A stretch of DNA of 64,000 bases from a virus. The notes beneath the pieces are model-generated. The model ran no database searches. It saw only the letters and a list, made by a program, of their open reading frames with translations, and was not told the DNA's origin. A program made the translations under genes and the position numbers. Shown here in pieces: positions 16,812 to 49,496 of the stretch. The stretch lies in the IMG/VR virus record IMGVR_UViG_3300044980_000010, positions 1 to 64,000 of that record; one strand, 5' to 3'. Position 1 is the stretch's first letter; each line of letters opens with the position of its first letter.

Positions 16812-17138
16812 ATGAACAAAGCATATAAAGCTGCATGGGCCAGCAGATGGAGAAAGAAACACCGAAAGACTGTGAACGACAGCAAACGTGTGGCCTACCA
16901 CAAGAAGAAAGTACGAGCCATAAAGTTCCTTGGTGGTAAATGTCGAAGCTGCAAACTGAAGTACAACGGAAAGAATGCCGCAGCATTTGAGTTTCACCAT
17001 CGTAAACCCAAGACAAAACTGTTTGCAGTTGGGAACAAAGTCATAACCTACAGTTGGACTAGGATTAAAAGAGAACTGAAGAAGTGCGACTTGACCTGTG
17101 CAAACTGTCACAATATACACCACGGAGGTGAGTGGTAA
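16812..17138 (+). CDS. HNH-type endonuclease domain protein
   Basis: A 108-aa basic protein: CRSCKLKY, then AFEFHHRKPKTK (the His pair of an HNH core) and CANCHNIHHG (second Cys pair plus His). This is the compact HNH layout seen in phage homing endonucleases. The stop overlaps the RtcB start in a TAATG. Confidence 0.75.
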   Translation: MNKAYKAAWASRWRKKHRKTVNDSKRVAYHKKKVRAIKFLGGKCRSCKLKYNGKNAAAFEFHHRKPKTKLFAVGNKVITYSWTRIKRELKKCDLTCANCHNIHHGGEW

Positions 17139-18367
17139 TGGATAACCTTTTCGACGTGATTGATGCTGGGAATGGGAGAATCATCAAAGCATGGAAGCGC
17201 GGTGTCCCTTTCGAGGAGGCCGCTGTAGAGCAGTTAAAGAAAACTGCACAATTGCCGTTTGTGTTTAAGCACATAGCGGCTATGCCAGATACTCATTTAG
17301 GCATAGGTGCAACTATCGGGACTGTGTTGCCAACCAAAGGTGCGTGTGTACCAAGCGCCGTAGGCGTGGACTTAGGCTGCGGCATGATCGCAGAGCGCAC
17401 CACGCTGAAGCTGTCGGACCTGAACGGTATCAGCCTGCCGGGACTACGCTTGGCGATTGAAGCGGCAGTACCATGCGGACGCACCAACAACGGTGGGCCG
17501 GGAGATCGCGGAGCATGGCACAACGTGCCGGACGACATCTCCATGGTGTGGACGCGGGAGTTCAACACGCCGTACGAGGAGATGTGCGAGAGGATTCCCG
17601 GCATGCGAGCACGCAACACACGCACGCAACTGGGAACGCTGGGCACTGGGAATCACTTCATCGAACTGACGACCGATGAGGAAGGCTTTGTGTGGATCGT
17701 GCTGCACTCCGGCTCACGTGGTTTGGGCAACAAGATCGGTACGTACTTCACCAATGTTGCCAAAGACCTGTGCGATAAGTGGAGCATTACGCTGCCTGAC
17801 CCAGACCTCGCGTACCTTCCCATCCACACGCAGGAGTTCAAGGACTACAAGGATGCGGTGACTCTGGCGCAGAAGTTTGCGTGGGAGAATCGCCTCATCA
17901 TGCTGGGCCAAGTCAAGAACGTCCTGTCGCGCACTGGTCTGGTGTTCGACAAGAAGCTGCTCGTTCACTGTCACCACAACTACATCTCTTGGGAGAGACA
18001 CTTTGGCGAAAACATCATGGTCACTCGCAAAGGTGCAGTCCGTGTGCAGAGCGGTGAACTCGGAATCATTCCGGGTTCTATGGGCGCACGCACCTACATC
18101 GTCGAAGGTTTGGGAAATCGTGAATCGTTCTGTACGTGCTCTCATGGCGCAGGACGTGCGATGGGCCGCAAGGCCGCTGAACGAACCTTTACTGTTGCTG
18201 AACACGCAGCAGCCACCGCTGGGATCGAGTGCGACAAAACTGCGGATACGCTGGATGAAACGCCGCGAGCCTACAAAGACATCGAAGCTGTCATGGCCGC
18301 ACAGGCGGATATTGTGAAGCCGCTGTTCATCCTCAAACAGTTCCTCAACGTGAAAGGAAAGAAATAA
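17138..18367 (+). CDS. rtcB: RtcB-like RNA ligase
   Basis: A 409-aa RtcB protein. Metal and GMP-binding signatures are present: VGVDLGCGM, LGTGNHF, HSGSRGLGN, HCHHNY and SFCTCSHGAGRAMGR with the guanylated His. RtcB joins 2',3'-cyclic phosphate and 5'-OH RNA ends, the products left by many tRNA-cleaving toxins. The ATG at 17138 has GGAGG at a good distance; a GTG at 17132 is too close. It probably repairs tRNAs cut during infection (inference), together with the RNA ligase at 36362. Confidence 0.93.
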   Translation: MDNLFDVIDAGNGRIIKAWKRGVPFEEAAVEQLKKTAQLPFVFKHIAAMPDTHLGIGATIGTVLPTKGACVPSAVGVDLGCGMIAERTTLKLSDLNGISLPGLRLAIEAAVPCGRTNNGGPGDRGAWHNVPDDISMVWTREFNTPYEEMCERIPGMRARNTRTQLGTLGTGNHFIELTTDEEGFVWIVLHSGSRGLGNKIGTYFTNVAKDLCDKWSITLPDPDLAYLPIHTQEFKDYKDAVTLAQKFAWENRLIMLGQVKNVLSRTGLVFDKKLLVHCHHNYISWERHFGENIMVTRKGAVRVQSGELGIIPGSMGARTYIVEGLGNRESFCTCSHGAGRAMGRKAAERTFTVAEHAAATAGIECDKTADTLDETPRAYKDIEAVMAAQADIVKPLFILKQFLNVKGKK

Positions 18368-25196: not shown

Positions 25197-25622
25197 ATGA
25201 AGCGCGACGACCTGATCTACACAGCAGCACTGATCGACGGAGAAGGGTCAGTGCTGCTGCAACATTCCCGTGCAAGTGAACGACGCTCTCCGGCTGTGAC
25301 TGTACCAAGCACAACTTGGTGCTTCATGGTTTATCTGAAGAAGACTTTCGGTGGCGCAGTTTCATCGAAGCGAACGTACAAGAAGAACCACAGCAAGTCG
25401 TGGAACTGGTCTGTGCGATACAATGGAGCCATAGACCTATTGCGACGGGTACTGCCGTACTTGAAGCACCCTGAGAAGAAACGCAGGGCTAGACTTATAG
25501 TTGAGCATTTCAAAGCTGTGACGCCGCGCAACGGTCGGTACACAAAGATTCAGGCCAAGCGCAAAGCAGAGTTTGAGCGAGCCTTTCTTAGCCGCTCTAC
25601 AAGAACACACGTTAACAGGTAG
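25197..25622 (+). CDS. LAGLIDADG homing endonuclease
   Basis: A 141-aa protein with a single LAGLIDADG motif (YTAALIDGEGSV, residues 8-19), so it would act as a homodimer. KTFGGAVSSKRTYKKNHS and a basic C-terminus fit DNA contact. It is free-standing: no group I intron core was found around it. Its stop lies only a few bases before the tmRNA acceptor piece, which may have been its target site (inference). Confidence 0.85.
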   Translation: MKRDDLIYTAALIDGEGSVLLQHSRASERRSPAVTVPSTTWCFMVYLKKTFGGAVSSKRTYKKNHSKSWNWSVRYNGAIDLLRRVLPYLKHPEKKRRARLIVEHFKAVTPRNGRYTKIQAKRKAEFERAFLSRSTRTHVNR

Positions 25623-25624
25623 TT

Positions 25625-25985
25625 GTAGCGTTGTCGGACTCGGCTTCGATGCCGACAGGTCCACCAAGAGCCACAAGGTTGCACCCCGTTGAAAGGCGAT
25701 CACTCAAGATCGTTACGAGGGTGGTCCCGGTTTTGTGGTTCTTGGTGGGCCTGAACTGGATTCGACGGCGACGGGCTAGGACTCACCTGCGTGTCGGATT
25801 CGCCTTGCCACGTTACGGAGAGGCAAACCAAAAATGCTAACGACGGAGTTATTGTCACTGCACCCAAGGCGAAAGCCATGGGCGCAGCCGCAGGCCGCTA
25901 ACCACGGGCTGTAGCTGTGAGTTTCACCCACACGAACCGGGGGCTGGTCCCCCGGACCTCGTAGTGGTAGCAAGGAGAAGTAAGG
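25625..25985 (+). ncRNA. ssrA: Circularly permuted (two-piece) tmRNA
   Basis: The 3' acceptor piece comes first: P2 strand 25629-25636, T arm 25640-25655 (TCGGC/GCCGA), CAGGTCC 25656-25662, then A-CCA 25663-25666. An 80-base linker follows, then the 5' end GGGCCTG at 25747-25753 and TGGATTCGACG. GGGCCTG pairs with CAGGTCC including the G3-U70 pair that marks alanine charging; in the precursor the helix runs 21 bp (25656-25676 with 25733-25753). P2 closes as 25763-25770 with 25629-25636. The tag frame starts at GCT 25836: ANDGVIVTAPKAKAMGAAAGR, stop TAA 25899-25901. A 7-bp hairpin follows at 25937-25955. Ends are approximate. Confidence 0.88.
25836..25901 (+). other. tmRNA tag reading frame with unusual end
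   Basis: The resume codon context GCT AAC GAC gives the classic A-N-D start. The frame encodes 21 residues ending AAAGR, not the usual LAA, VAA or similar hydrophobic-Ala-Ala end that directs tagged proteins to ClpXP. Confidence 0.75.
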
Positions 25986-25998
25986 CACCACACAACGT

Positions 25999-26164
25999 GG
26001 GGGCGTAGCTCAATGGCAGAGCGCCAAGGGGCACAACCGTGGATGAAGTAAGCAAACAGGCACGCCTGTTCTAGACAGGAAGCCGGGGATCAGAGCGATC
26101 CATAAAAGCTGAAGGCCACACCAGTTGTCCTTGGAGGTTGGAGGTTCGAGTCCTTCCGTCCCCT
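25999..26164 (+). tRNA. tRNA-like gene with 101 nt in place of the anticodon loop
   Basis: All tRNA parts but the anticodon loop are regular: acceptor GGGGGCG/CGTCCCC (25999-26005, 26157-26163), TA, D arm GCTC-AATGGCA-GAGC (26008-26022), anticodon stem CCAAG/CTTGG (26024-26028, 26130-26134), variable AGGTT, T arm GGAGG-TTCGAGT-CCTTC (26140-26156). Instead of 7 loop bases there are 101 (26029-26129), partly folded (ACAAC/GTTGT, AACAGG-CACG-CCTGTT, GGATC-AGAGC-GATCC). No split gives U33, so identity is unknown. It may be an interrupted tRNA or a tRNA mimic. Confidence 0.55.
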
Positions 26165-26220
26165 GCTTACTTACCAGAACGAGGCGTCAGCGCACGCCTA
26201 CCTTGCACACAGGAGATCAC

Positions 26221-46668: not shown

Positions 46669-47237
46669 TGTTCGGAAACGACATTGAAGGTCGCTACAAG
46701 CATGACAGCACGTTCCGGCGCGTCGTGGATCAGATGCGTGCTCTGCTTAGTGCCTACCACATCACTCCCGGCGAACTGCGCGAGGCTTCCATCCTAGCCG
46801 CGACGATGCATGAGTCCGAGAACATACGGCCTCTCTACATCCTCAAGTATGACCGGGATGCAATGATTTATCCCATGCGCTTTGACATGAACCCTCCCGC
46901 TTTGTTTGGTGGCGACTCTCGTACAGGTCGGTGGGTGACGAGCACTCCCAACGTAACCGAGCAGGACAAGAAGTCTGAGCCTGAGAAACCCAAGTACAAA
47001 TGCATCTGTAACTACACTGGCACGGTAGCTGCGCTGCATTCTCAGACGTGCAAGGATTACAACTGGTCCGTGACTCACCCCTCGCTGTTCACCGAGCACG
47101 TGTATGGCGAATGGCACAAAGGTCTGGGCAACGACAATGAGTGGCGCATGTGTATACGGTGTCAGATGAGCAGCACCTACATCGAGCACAACAAGATCAC
47201 CACCTGCACTGGCAAGTACGTTCAACCAAAATCATAG
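46668..47237 (+). CDS. Hypothetical protein with zinc motifs
   Basis: A 189-aa ORF. N-terminal helical region; C-terminal half has CICNYTG, HSQTC and CIRCQMSS, plus a final Cys, so one or two zinc sites. No family recognised. It precedes the Clp-type ATPase by eight bases. Confidence 0.6.
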   Translation: MFGNDIEGRYKHDSTFRRVVDQMRALLSAYHITPGELREASILAATMHESENIRPLYILKYDRDAMIYPMRFDMNPPALFGGDSRTGRWVTSTPNVTEQDKKSEPEKPKYKCICNYTGTVAALHSQTCKDYNWSVTHPSLFTEHVYGEWHKGLGNDNEWRMCIRCQMSSTYIEHNKITTCTGKYVQPKS

Positions 47238-47245
47238 GAGGCACC

Positions 47246-48322
47246 ATGGCACTCTTCGGCACAGCCGCTGCACCAAAGAAGCTGGACCTGACAAAACGAA
47301 ATCCCATTCTCGACCCACTGCTCAAGAAGATGCAGGATCGCCTAGTAGGGCAAGGTAACGCCGCAGAGGTGCTGGTTGACATGGTGGCGACTCACCTGTC
47401 AGGTTTCGGTGCTCCCGGTAGGCCAGCAGGCAATGCGCTGCTCCTTGGGCCTACAGGCGCTGGCAAGACGCACGCCGTGGAGGTTCTGTGCGAGGGACTT
47501 GTAGGGGATGCAAAGGGTCTGATCAAAGTAGATTGTGCCGAGTTTCAACACTCGCACGAGATCGCCAAGCTGATAGGCTCGCCTCCCGGCTACCTAGGGC
47601 ACCGCGAGACACCTCCTCTGTTGACTCAGGAGCGCATCAACGCGCTGCACAAAGAGGGCATGCCGTTATCTGTCATTCTCTTCGATGAGATCGAGAAGGC
47701 TTCGGACGCTCTGTGGCAGTTGCTGCTGGGCGTGCTCGACAAAGCCACGCTGACTCTAGGTGACAACCGCGTGACTAACTTCGAGCACTGCATCATTCTG
47801 ATGACCTCCAACCTTGGTGCTAAGGAGATGCACGCCAAGAAGTACGGCTTCAAACAGAGCGAAGAGATCGAAATCATCAACGATGAGAAGAACGAGGAGA
47901 TCGCGCTCTCTGCCGCCAAGAAGCACTTCACGGCTGAGTTCATCAACCGCCTCGATCACATCGTGACGTTCAATACGTTGACCAAGCCGCAGGTGGCTCA
48001 GGTTATGAAGATCGAACTGGACCTGATCCAGAAGATGTTCTGGGACAAGGCGAAGTTCATCTACCAACTCACCCCTGCTGCGAAGTACACGATCTTGGAA
48101 GAGGGCTACAGCATCGAGTACGGCGCTCGCAATCTGAAGCGCGTCATTGAGAAGCGCCTGCGGCTTCCGCTGGCTGGACTAGTGTCCTCTGGGCAGATTT
48201 CACCGGGAGCTACACTGGTCATCGACCAAGCCCACCCGAAGGACAAGCAGTTCGAGTTCATCTCGACCAAGCTGGCCGGGACGAACATCACATTCAAAGA
48301 TGCCGAGGAGGCAATATTATGA
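47246..48322 (+). CDS. Clp-type AAA+ ATPase (ClpA/B D2-like)
   Basis: A 358-aa protein with AGGAGG upstream. Walker A GPTGAGKTHA, Walker B VILFDEIEK, sensor 1 MTSNLGA, sensor 2 IEYGARNLKRVIEKR and a C-terminal Clp small domain. No N-domain, no M-domain and no ClpX zinc finger, so it is a single-ring unfoldase by itself or a modifier of host Clp. It might act on tmRNA-tagged or host proteins (inference). Confidence 0.88.
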   Translation: MALFGTAAAPKKLDLTKRNPILDPLLKKMQDRLVGQGNAAEVLVDMVATHLSGFGAPGRPAGNALLLGPTGAGKTHAVEVLCEGLVGDAKGLIKVDCAEFQHSHEIAKLIGSPPGYLGHRETPPLLTQERINALHKEGMPLSVILFDEIEKASDALWQLLLGVLDKATLTLGDNRVTNFEHCIILMTSNLGAKEMHAKKYGFKQSEEIEIINDEKNEEIALSAAKKHFTAEFINRLDHIVTFNTLTKPQVAQVMKIELDLIQKMFWDKAKFIYQLTPAAKYTILEEGYSIEYGARNLKRVIEKRLRLPLAGLVSSGQISPGATLVIDQAHPKDKQFEFISTKLAGTNITFKDAEEAIL

Positions 48323-48639
48323 AGAAAACAAAAGTAACCGTAAAGTCGCTGCGTGAGGAACTGAAGAACGTGCAAGAGAACTTCGACGTGTACCGCGAGA
48401 AGACTCGCGCTTACATCTTCGAGAACGCCAGTCTGGGAAACCGCCGTCGCCTGATGTCGATCACGCCTGCCAACGAAAAAGGCATGATCAACGGTATGAC
48501 GATTCCAGAACTGGTCATGCTCGTCAACCTCAACGAAGGAACCGGAGAAGTGGTTCTGTTGGAGACTGAGAACAACAAGAAAGACCTCGTGGTCATAGCC
48601 AAGAAGAAAGGGCCGCGCACCCCGGTGGACCTCCTGTGA
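48319..48639 (+). CDS. Hypothetical protein
   Basis: A 106-aa ORF coupled by ATGA to the ATPase gene. Coiled-coil start (VKSLREELKNVQENFDVYRE) and beta-rich end (GEVVLLETENNKKDLVVIA). May be an adaptor or substrate of the ATPase; no family known. Confidence 0.6.
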   Translation: MKKTKVTVKSLREELKNVQENFDVYREKTRAYIFENASLGNRRRLMSITPANEKGMINGMTIPELVMLVNLNEGTGEVVLLETENNKKDLVVIAKKKGPRTPVDLL

Positions 48640-49496
48640 TAATCGACCCTCTCTTCAAAGGAACCGCCCTCAGCAACGAAGGGCTGGACAAGGCAGTGGG
48701 CATCGGGGAAGCCTTCACGAAGCTGCTGCAAGTGCTGGACGAAGTTTGTCCAAAGAGCCGCGAGTTCTCCATCGCTCGCACCAAACTGGAAGAGGCTTCG
48801 TTCTACGCAAAGAAATCTCTCACCAACTACGAAGGCAACCGCCAACCGTTGCCAGAAGGGAACTCTAACGTGGGATTCACTATCGAGTTCTCATACAACG
48901 ACGCGCCTTTCACGGCATCCAGCAATGACTCTCTCACCACAAACGGAGAGAGTCTGGATAACGTGGTATTCCAAGATCGCGCAGCAGCGGAGAAAGAAGC
49001 AACTCTGCAAGAACACCAGATGGGAATACGCTACAAATACTGGGTGGTGAGCACTGGCATTACAGTTGCGCCTAGCACTGGTCTTAAAGTTGTGCCTCGC
49101 ACTGCGATCTACGACGCCATTACCAAAGAAGATCAGTACGCGCAGGGCTGGGCAAAGGGCAAGCGCAGCGTGGATGGCACCGTGCCGGACCACCTCGTAT
49201 CTCGCCAGACAGGCCAGCCGTTCTCTTCCATGGAGTGGGTTATCTTCGCAGAGAAGTACCTCAACGAAGCAAAGACGGCCTACGCAAACTTCCTGCCTGA
49301 CATGAACGTGGTCAACATCCGTCTCCTCAAGGCAGCATCACTGCTAGTCAGTGCATTGCAGTGTTCTGCCTCCCAACAGGATTTGGACAAGATCGCGGGT
49401 GTGTCGAGCACTGGGTTCCCCATTCAACATGGAGGACTCTCCGCATTCAAACAGTACGCGAAAGACAATCCAGAGTTCGCAGGAGACCGAGCATGA
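48636..49496 (+). CDS. Protein with Acb2/Tad1-type hairpin domain (candidate anti-CBASS/anti-Thoeris)
   Basis: A 286-aa protein. Residues 17-65 have a helical hairpin with CPKSREFSIARTKLEEASFY, matching the SREKSLAxTKLEEAxxW pattern of the Acb2/Tad1 hairpin domain found in phage sponges that bind cyclic nucleotide or gcADPR signals. The C-terminal half (about 175-280) is a separate helical domain (EWVIFAEKYLNEAKTAY) resembling MazG-like bundles. If the match holds, it blocks CBASS or Thoeris signalling; the fusion is unusual. Confidence 0.65.
   Translation: MIIDPLFKGTALSNEGLDKAVGIGEAFTKLLQVLDEVCPKSREFSIARTKLEEASFYAKKSLTNYEGNRQPLPEGNSNVGFTIEFSYNDAPFTASSNDSLTTNGESLDNVVFQDRAAAEKEATLQEHQMGIRYKYWVVSTGITVAPSTGLKVVPRTAIYDAITKEDQYAQGWAKGKRSVDGTVPDHLVSRQTGQPFSSMEWVIFAEKYLNEAKTAYANFLPDMNVVNIRLLKAASLLVSALQCSASQQDLDKIAGVSSTGFPIQHGGLSAFKQYAKDNPEFAGDRA

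Follow-up and report, generated by a model that had tools for sequence, protein, structure and literature searches.

What does a phage do with a circularly permuted (two-piece) tmRNA of its own, and which of its other genes could work together with it? The question is raised by a locus in the 64,000-nucleotide stretch of viral DNA analyzed here, hereafter the window, which is part of a 103,946-bp IMG/VR virus record. Phage tmRNAs have hitherto been treated as sporadic, host-like genes. The features discussed below are collected in Table 1.

The permuted tmRNA gene and its conservation

The window encodes, at positions 25630-25970, a circularly permuted tmRNA. The score of the Rfam permuted tmRNA model RF04321 at 25607-25874 (+) is 67.0 bits (gathering score 47; E = 1e-10 over the whole window), which bears out a sequence-only reading of this locus that had named the Rfam permuted models as the check on such a gene. 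The coordinates and numbers of that reading hold for the two-piece anatomy: the acceptor half comes first and ends in an encoded CCA, the acceptor stem forms 7 of 7 pairs including G3-U70, and P2, likewise with 7 of 7 pairs, joins both pieces. The 21-bp processing helix and the 80-base linker described there are also found, as 21 uninterrupted pairs in a precursor helix in which the spacer flanks lengthen the acceptor; the precursor fold has a z of -6.5 relative to shuffles. That the gene is phage-encoded was likewise correct, given the 104-kb virus record and relatives that include cultured phages. The shape of the terminal hairpin recurs, by eye, in the relatives G001 and G007. ARAGORN, run on the window, does not call the permuted tmRNA, probably owing to the 6-nt T loop. 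Neither a sigma-70 promoter nor a terminator is conspicuous in the vicinity of the gene, and Rfam identifies no glutamine riboswitch in the window.

Table 1. Positions of the tmRNA elements and of two protein-coding genes in the window
Feature	Positions	Strand	Evidence or remark
RtcB RNA ligase	17132-18367	+	PF01139, 371 bits; context, the tmRNA does not need RtcB
Acceptor (3') piece, core	25630-25666	+	RF04321 match and pairings; the piece reaches upstream to about 25607
P2 5' strand, GTTGTCG	25630-25636	+	followed by GAC
T arm, 6-nt loop TTCGAT	25640-25655	+	
Acceptor 3' strand, CAGGTCC	25656-25662	+	
A73	25663	+	
Encoded CCA	25664-25666	+	
Spacer (intervening sequence), exactly 80 nt	25667-25746	+	expected to be excised
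Acceptor 5' strand, GGGCCTG; start of the 5' (mRNA-like) piece	25747-25753	+	G3-U70; followed by ATTCGA
P2 3' strand, CGGCGAC	25766-25772	+	
Tag reading frame: resume codon GCT at 25836, 21 codons ANDGVIVTAPKAKAMGAAAGR, TAA at 25899-25901	25836-25901	+	translation
Terminal hairpin CCGGGGG...CCCCCGG, 3' end of the 5' piece	within 25930-25970, near 25937-25955	+	by eye
Clp AAA+ unfoldase, single ring	47141-48322, likely start Met at 47246	+	PF07724, 117 bits; PF10431, 55 bits

Relatives of the window phage were gathered with a primase/helicase query, which yielded 17 and later 76 related viral loci; at the DNA level, the tmRNA region and its surrounding 24 kb had no match among the phage records searched. 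A permuted tmRNA scores over the cut-off in all 22 related records of at least 85 kb, and in 29 records in total. Covariation was read from 25 distinct sequences, to which the unrelated phage Tunturi 5 contributes one. G3-U70 does not vary among them (25/25), and acceptor pairs 4, 5 and 6 are each represented by three or four pair types. Because the acceptor sites were located by demanding 7 pairs, the frequency of acceptor pairing carries no weight of its own, and it is the variety of pair types that counts. Of the 7 possible P2 pairs, 6.4 form on average when each strand is matched with its proper partner, vs 3.9 when partners are swapped in from other phages. The tmRNA gene is thus real and under selection, and belongs to a lineage of phages with genomes of roughly 85-110 kb.

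Other features of the RNA vary more freely across this lineage. The spacer ranges from 11 to 154 nt. The sequence-only reading had looked to conservation in related phages as a further check, and here the outcome is split: P2 pairing is retained, and a long precursor helix, of 18-35 pairs, persists in the majority of relatives, but it is short or absent with short spacers and in a few relatives with longer ones. The CCA is encoded in all but one type, being absent from the G009/G012 tmRNA, and non-canonical T loops of 5 to 8 nt occur in G009, G012 and several other relatives. In the primase/helicase of one relative (G017; L020 10001-12892), an intein of roughly 340 aa lies at the Walker A motif.

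Directly downstream of the tmRNA gene, at 25999-26165 (+), there is a tRNA-like element (45.9 bits with the Rfam tRNA model, not called by ARAGORN) in which about 101 nt replace the 7-nt anticodon loop and lengthen the anticodon stem. Removal of the insert yields no standard loop, and G001, the nearest relative, lacks the element at this place. The idea of a small group I intron was rejected, the insert being far too short and lacking a U at the expected splice position. A second tmRNA half was rejected as well, since the element cannot pair with the acceptor.

Gene form in the phages and in their hosts

Two of the relatives are cultured phages of Tunturiibacter (Acidobacteriota), namely, the podovirus Tunturi 3 and the siphovirus Tunturi 4, so that at least some phages of the tmRNA-bearing lineage infect Acidobacteriota. 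From these relatives, we infer an acidobacterial host for the window phage; a search of bacterial genomes for the primase, made for host prediction, gave no match. A third cultured phage, Tunturi 5, a jumbo phage reported to be unrelated, also carries a permuted tmRNA, which is unannotated (86.4 bits; tag end FAMAA; L300, PP885688.1 157899-158195), and none was found in Tunturi 1. The paper describing the Tunturi phages makes no mention of tmRNA (PMC11924767).

The host strain Tunturiibacter X5P2 encodes a one-piece tmRNA (tag AEPQFALAA), SmpB and ClpP. One-piece tmRNAs are also present in 11 other Acidobacteriota, and X5P2 relatives have both a one-piece tmRNA and SmpB. The host tmRNA being of the one-piece type, the form of the gene in the phage group differs from that of the host, and the earlier suggestion that the gene may come from the host finds no support for this group. 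Matches of the Rfam permuted tmRNA model that exceed the threshold do occur in 13 of 396 Acidobacteriota genomes, but an acidobacterial permuted tmRNA was rejected as a source: all 10 loci inspected out of these 13 (L267-L276) fall at one-piece genes. At 9 of the 10, a tRNA-Asp lies directly upstream of the one-piece ssrA, and it is this order of genes that accounts for the false matches.

The same arrangement could in principle deceive us in the phages, if a tRNA beside a one-piece tmRNA were misread by the covariance model as a permuted gene. The upstream half in the phages, however, is not accompanied by a tRNA 5' half, and no complementary 3' half lies downstream; the acceptor forms its 7 of 7 pairs with the downstream half and covaries across the relatives, and the tRNA-like element at 25999-26165 is unable to pair with GGGCCTG. 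A model artefact of this kind is therefore exceedingly improbable. Functionless cargo, recently taken from a host, is conceivable insofar as ssrA fragments are known in prophages, but it is very unlikely here: the cultured host and the sampled Acidobacteriota have the other gene form, and presence in 22 of 22 large relatives, with covariation, contradicts it for the group as a whole.

The sequence-only reading had known of few or no phage examples, which does not stand: a count made in 2021 lists 53 two-piece tmRNAs in 18,146 phage genomes, 50 of the 53 from marine or aquatic samples (PMC9004378), and 79 unique tmRNAs of bacteriophages, irrespective of form, are found in the 2025 tmRNA database (PMC11915505). 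Like the marine phage two-piece tmRNAs, such as those of Melnitz and the pelagimyophages (PMC9004378), the tmRNAs described here are phage-encoded, complete and two-piece. Most of the marine and aquatic phage tmRNAs correspond to bacterial lineages in which the two-piece form is likewise in use (PMC9004378), whereas here soil-type phages, whose cultured hosts have a one-piece tmRNA, carry the gene group-wide, with a tag class tied to Clp (see below). The mycobacteriophage tmRNAs (the Bxz1 group and DS6A) are also phage-borne ssrA, but are one-piece genes, and that of DS6A is tag-less. Another unannotated permuted tmRNA, with tag end AIAA, was seen in Caulobacter phage phiCbK (L298, JX163858.1, about 104.1-104.5 kb).

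Compared to the permuted tmRNAs of the alpha, beta and cyano lineages (RF04321, RF01849, RF01850, RF01851), the phage gene has the same gene order, G3-U70 acceptor, CCA, T arm, P2, spacer, resume codon and tag frame. Among the three older models, the beta model fits the window tmRNA best, but its score of 55.3 falls short of the beta cut-off of 84, and the phage group stays unplaced among the alpha, beta and cyano models, relatives scoring variously as beta or alpha. Unlike the tmRNAs of these lineages, those of the phages encode long tags (11-37 aa), many of them with unusual ends.

Tag peptides and the phage Clp unfoldase

The phage tags, of 11-37 residues, are highly diverse, and every member has an open tag frame followed by a stop. 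Most tags end like bacterial degrons (LAA, VAA, VLA, ATA, VMA). One class, however, ends in AMxAA[A/C], optionally followed by two more residues, VM replacing AM in two phages; the ends seen include MGAAAGR, MGAAAGV, MGAAAGC, MAAAAGR, MAAACGR, MSAAAGA, MEAAA and MAAAAA. The window tag, ANDGVIVTAPKAKAMGAAAGR, belongs here: it ends in GAAAGR and lacks the usual LAA or hydrophobic-Ala-Ala degron end. Published databases include atypical and tag-less tmRNAs, so that the hydrophobic-Ala-Ala end is typical but not a strict requirement; the long, variable phage tags and the AMxAA[A/C](Gx) end class are new here.

In four phages (G000, G001, G007 and G018), the tag contains KAMGAAAG, in which 6 of the 8 codons differ, all synonymously, and the last residue of the tag varies. 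Such synonymous-only change marks the peptide as translated and under selection. A pattern search for MGAAAGx in IMG/VR gave 14 matches, three of which proved to be tmRNAs, all from this clade. These observations bear on another possibility, a decoy role, in which the RNA would titrate host SmpB or alanine and so inhibit trans-translation in the host, the action proposed for the tmRNA of DS6A, which has no tag. Apart from that precedent, the decoy would suit phages in which no SmpB was found, but it needs no tag frame, and yet none of the members is without an open, stop-terminated tag, and amino acid conservation goes together with synonymous change in one clade; we consider a decoy improbable.

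The window phage also encodes a Clp protein that consists of AAA_2 and D2-small domains, with Walker A and B motifs and a GSPPGYLG pore loop. By sequence profile, it lies nearest to ClpC and ClpB D2, and the best matches of its predicted fold (pLDDT 84) are ClpC in ClpC-ClpP complexes. It resembles the ClpC and ClpA D2 unfoldases that feed ClpP in its AAA+ D2 module, Walker motifs and pore loop, and possibly in its [FILMY]GF tripeptide, but differs from them in being a single ring of about 350 aa, without an N domain or D1, at about 34% identity. At the position of the ClpP-docking loop of ClpC, all 9 phage Clps keep [FILMY]-G-[FY] (YGF in the window Clp; FGF, IGF, LGY and MGF in relatives), where ClpC has AGF or VGF and ClpB lacks the loop; YGF sits in a flexible loop of the model, and the set of tripeptides is looser than the strict [LIV]-G-[FL] motif. 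Near the Clp gene, at 48636-49496 (+), lies a gene for an Acb2/Tad1 hairpin domain protein (40 bits), possibly an anti-CBASS or anti-Thoeris factor.

Among the 22 phages of the tree with callable records, the AMxAA[A/C](Gx) tag is found in 9 of 9 that encode Clp and in none of 13 that do not (Fisher p = 2e-6, ancestry disregarded, for a class worded after the data had been seen). For the narrower class A[A/C]Gx, which preceded the Clp search (tags ending in AAG[RV] had been noted), the counts are 7/9 and 0/13 (p = 2e-4, ancestry again disregarded). On the primase tree, no fewer than three changes are required to account for the presence of Clp, and the tag class changes along with it in all of the independent pairs (3 of 3). 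This concordance of Clp and tag is suggestive, but the sign test gives p = 0.25, three pairs being too few to reach significance. Two phages with intermediate tag ends, G014 (KAMAVAA; 73 kb without a Clp) and G009 (KAMAAHA, a 13-kb fragment), were excluded from the test, their records being incomplete.

No Clp was detected, by tblastn and a custom profile, in twelve Clp-minus genomes and in 49-kb stretches of Tunturi 3 and 4. ORF38 of Tunturi 3, annotated as 'ATPase', was examined as a hidden Clp and belongs to a different AAA family. One Clp-encoding phage contains a ClpP-like frame with one in-frame TAG (G028:C1:49470-49937), which might encode a capsid maturation protease, be a broken gene or reflect TAG recoding.

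A phage-encoded tag and its possible reader

The phage RNA very probably is a functional rescue tmRNA, an expectation that draws on what is known of tmRNA processing, charging, SmpB use and ribosome rescue. In the folded transcript, the two halves would be connected through the acceptor and P2 stems, and host tRNA-processing enzymes would remove the spacer, leaving two RNAs held together by base pairs, the tRNA-like part of which would be charged with alanine by virtue of G3-U70. As the phages lack SmpB, that of the host would be used; the charged tmRNA would then enter stalled ribosomes and swap the message for its tag frame, so that a phage-specific peptide is added and ribosomes stalled on broken messages are recycled during infection. 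Maintenance of the gene to keep translation running, as the sequence-only reading put it, is still the most likely role, although the variable tags and the link to Clp had escaped that reading.

Ribosome rescue fits a wider translation-repair set, given RtcB, a T4-type RNA ligase and tRNAs in the window phage and GGQ proteins in relatives. The RF-1/GGQ release factor-like proteins of Tunturi 4 (PP885687.1 43946-44293, directly upstream of the tmRNA gene) and Tunturi 3 (PP885686.1 82616-82783) are possible second ribosome-rescue factors; as a general partner of the tmRNA, this protein was rejected, being present in these two phages only.

In the Clp-encoding sub-lineages, including that of the window phage, the tag end has shifted from hydrophobic-Ala-Ala to AMxAA[A/C](Gx). 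E. coli ClpX needs the free Ala-Ala of the ssrA tag, which ends such as AGR-COOH do not offer. On the simplest reading, the tagged products would no longer go to host ClpX but to the phage Clp, itself docked on the ClpP of the host. The phage would then possess a private tag-and-degrade channel, in which the phage tmRNA writes the AMxAA[A/C](Gx) degron and the phage Clp on host ClpP reads it, bypassing host ClpX, with tag and unfoldase co-evolving. We give this reading a probability of about 0.4.

It is also quite possible that the RNA is a rescue tmRNA whose odd tag ends merely shield tagged phage proteins from host ClpXP, the Clp being an unrelated chaperone of replication or capsid proteins and the association a matter of shared ancestry. 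There are only three independent switches, Clp ATPases are known in other phages, for example, the Pseudomonas jumbo phages, and ends such as AGR are without the free AA needed by ClpX. Shielding, however, does not readily explain G017 and G057, two Clp-encoding phages whose tags end in plain AAA, with the alanines unhidden; nor would it predict an association without exception among the phages sampled, or the retention of the putative ClpP-docking tripeptide in 9 of 9 Clps.

If the tag is indeed read by the phage Clp, this would be, to our knowledge, the first virus to encode the writer of a trans-translation degron together with its reader. The phages would then provide a natural series of tags with matching unfoldases, suited to studying how AAA+ proteases choose their C-terminal signals. 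Here, a tmRNA is present in every large sampled member of a phage group, the known hosts use the other form of the gene, and the tags lie far from the bacterial degron. Tunturi 3 and Tunturi 4, with their hosts, are two cultured phage-host pairs in which phage trans-translation is testable.
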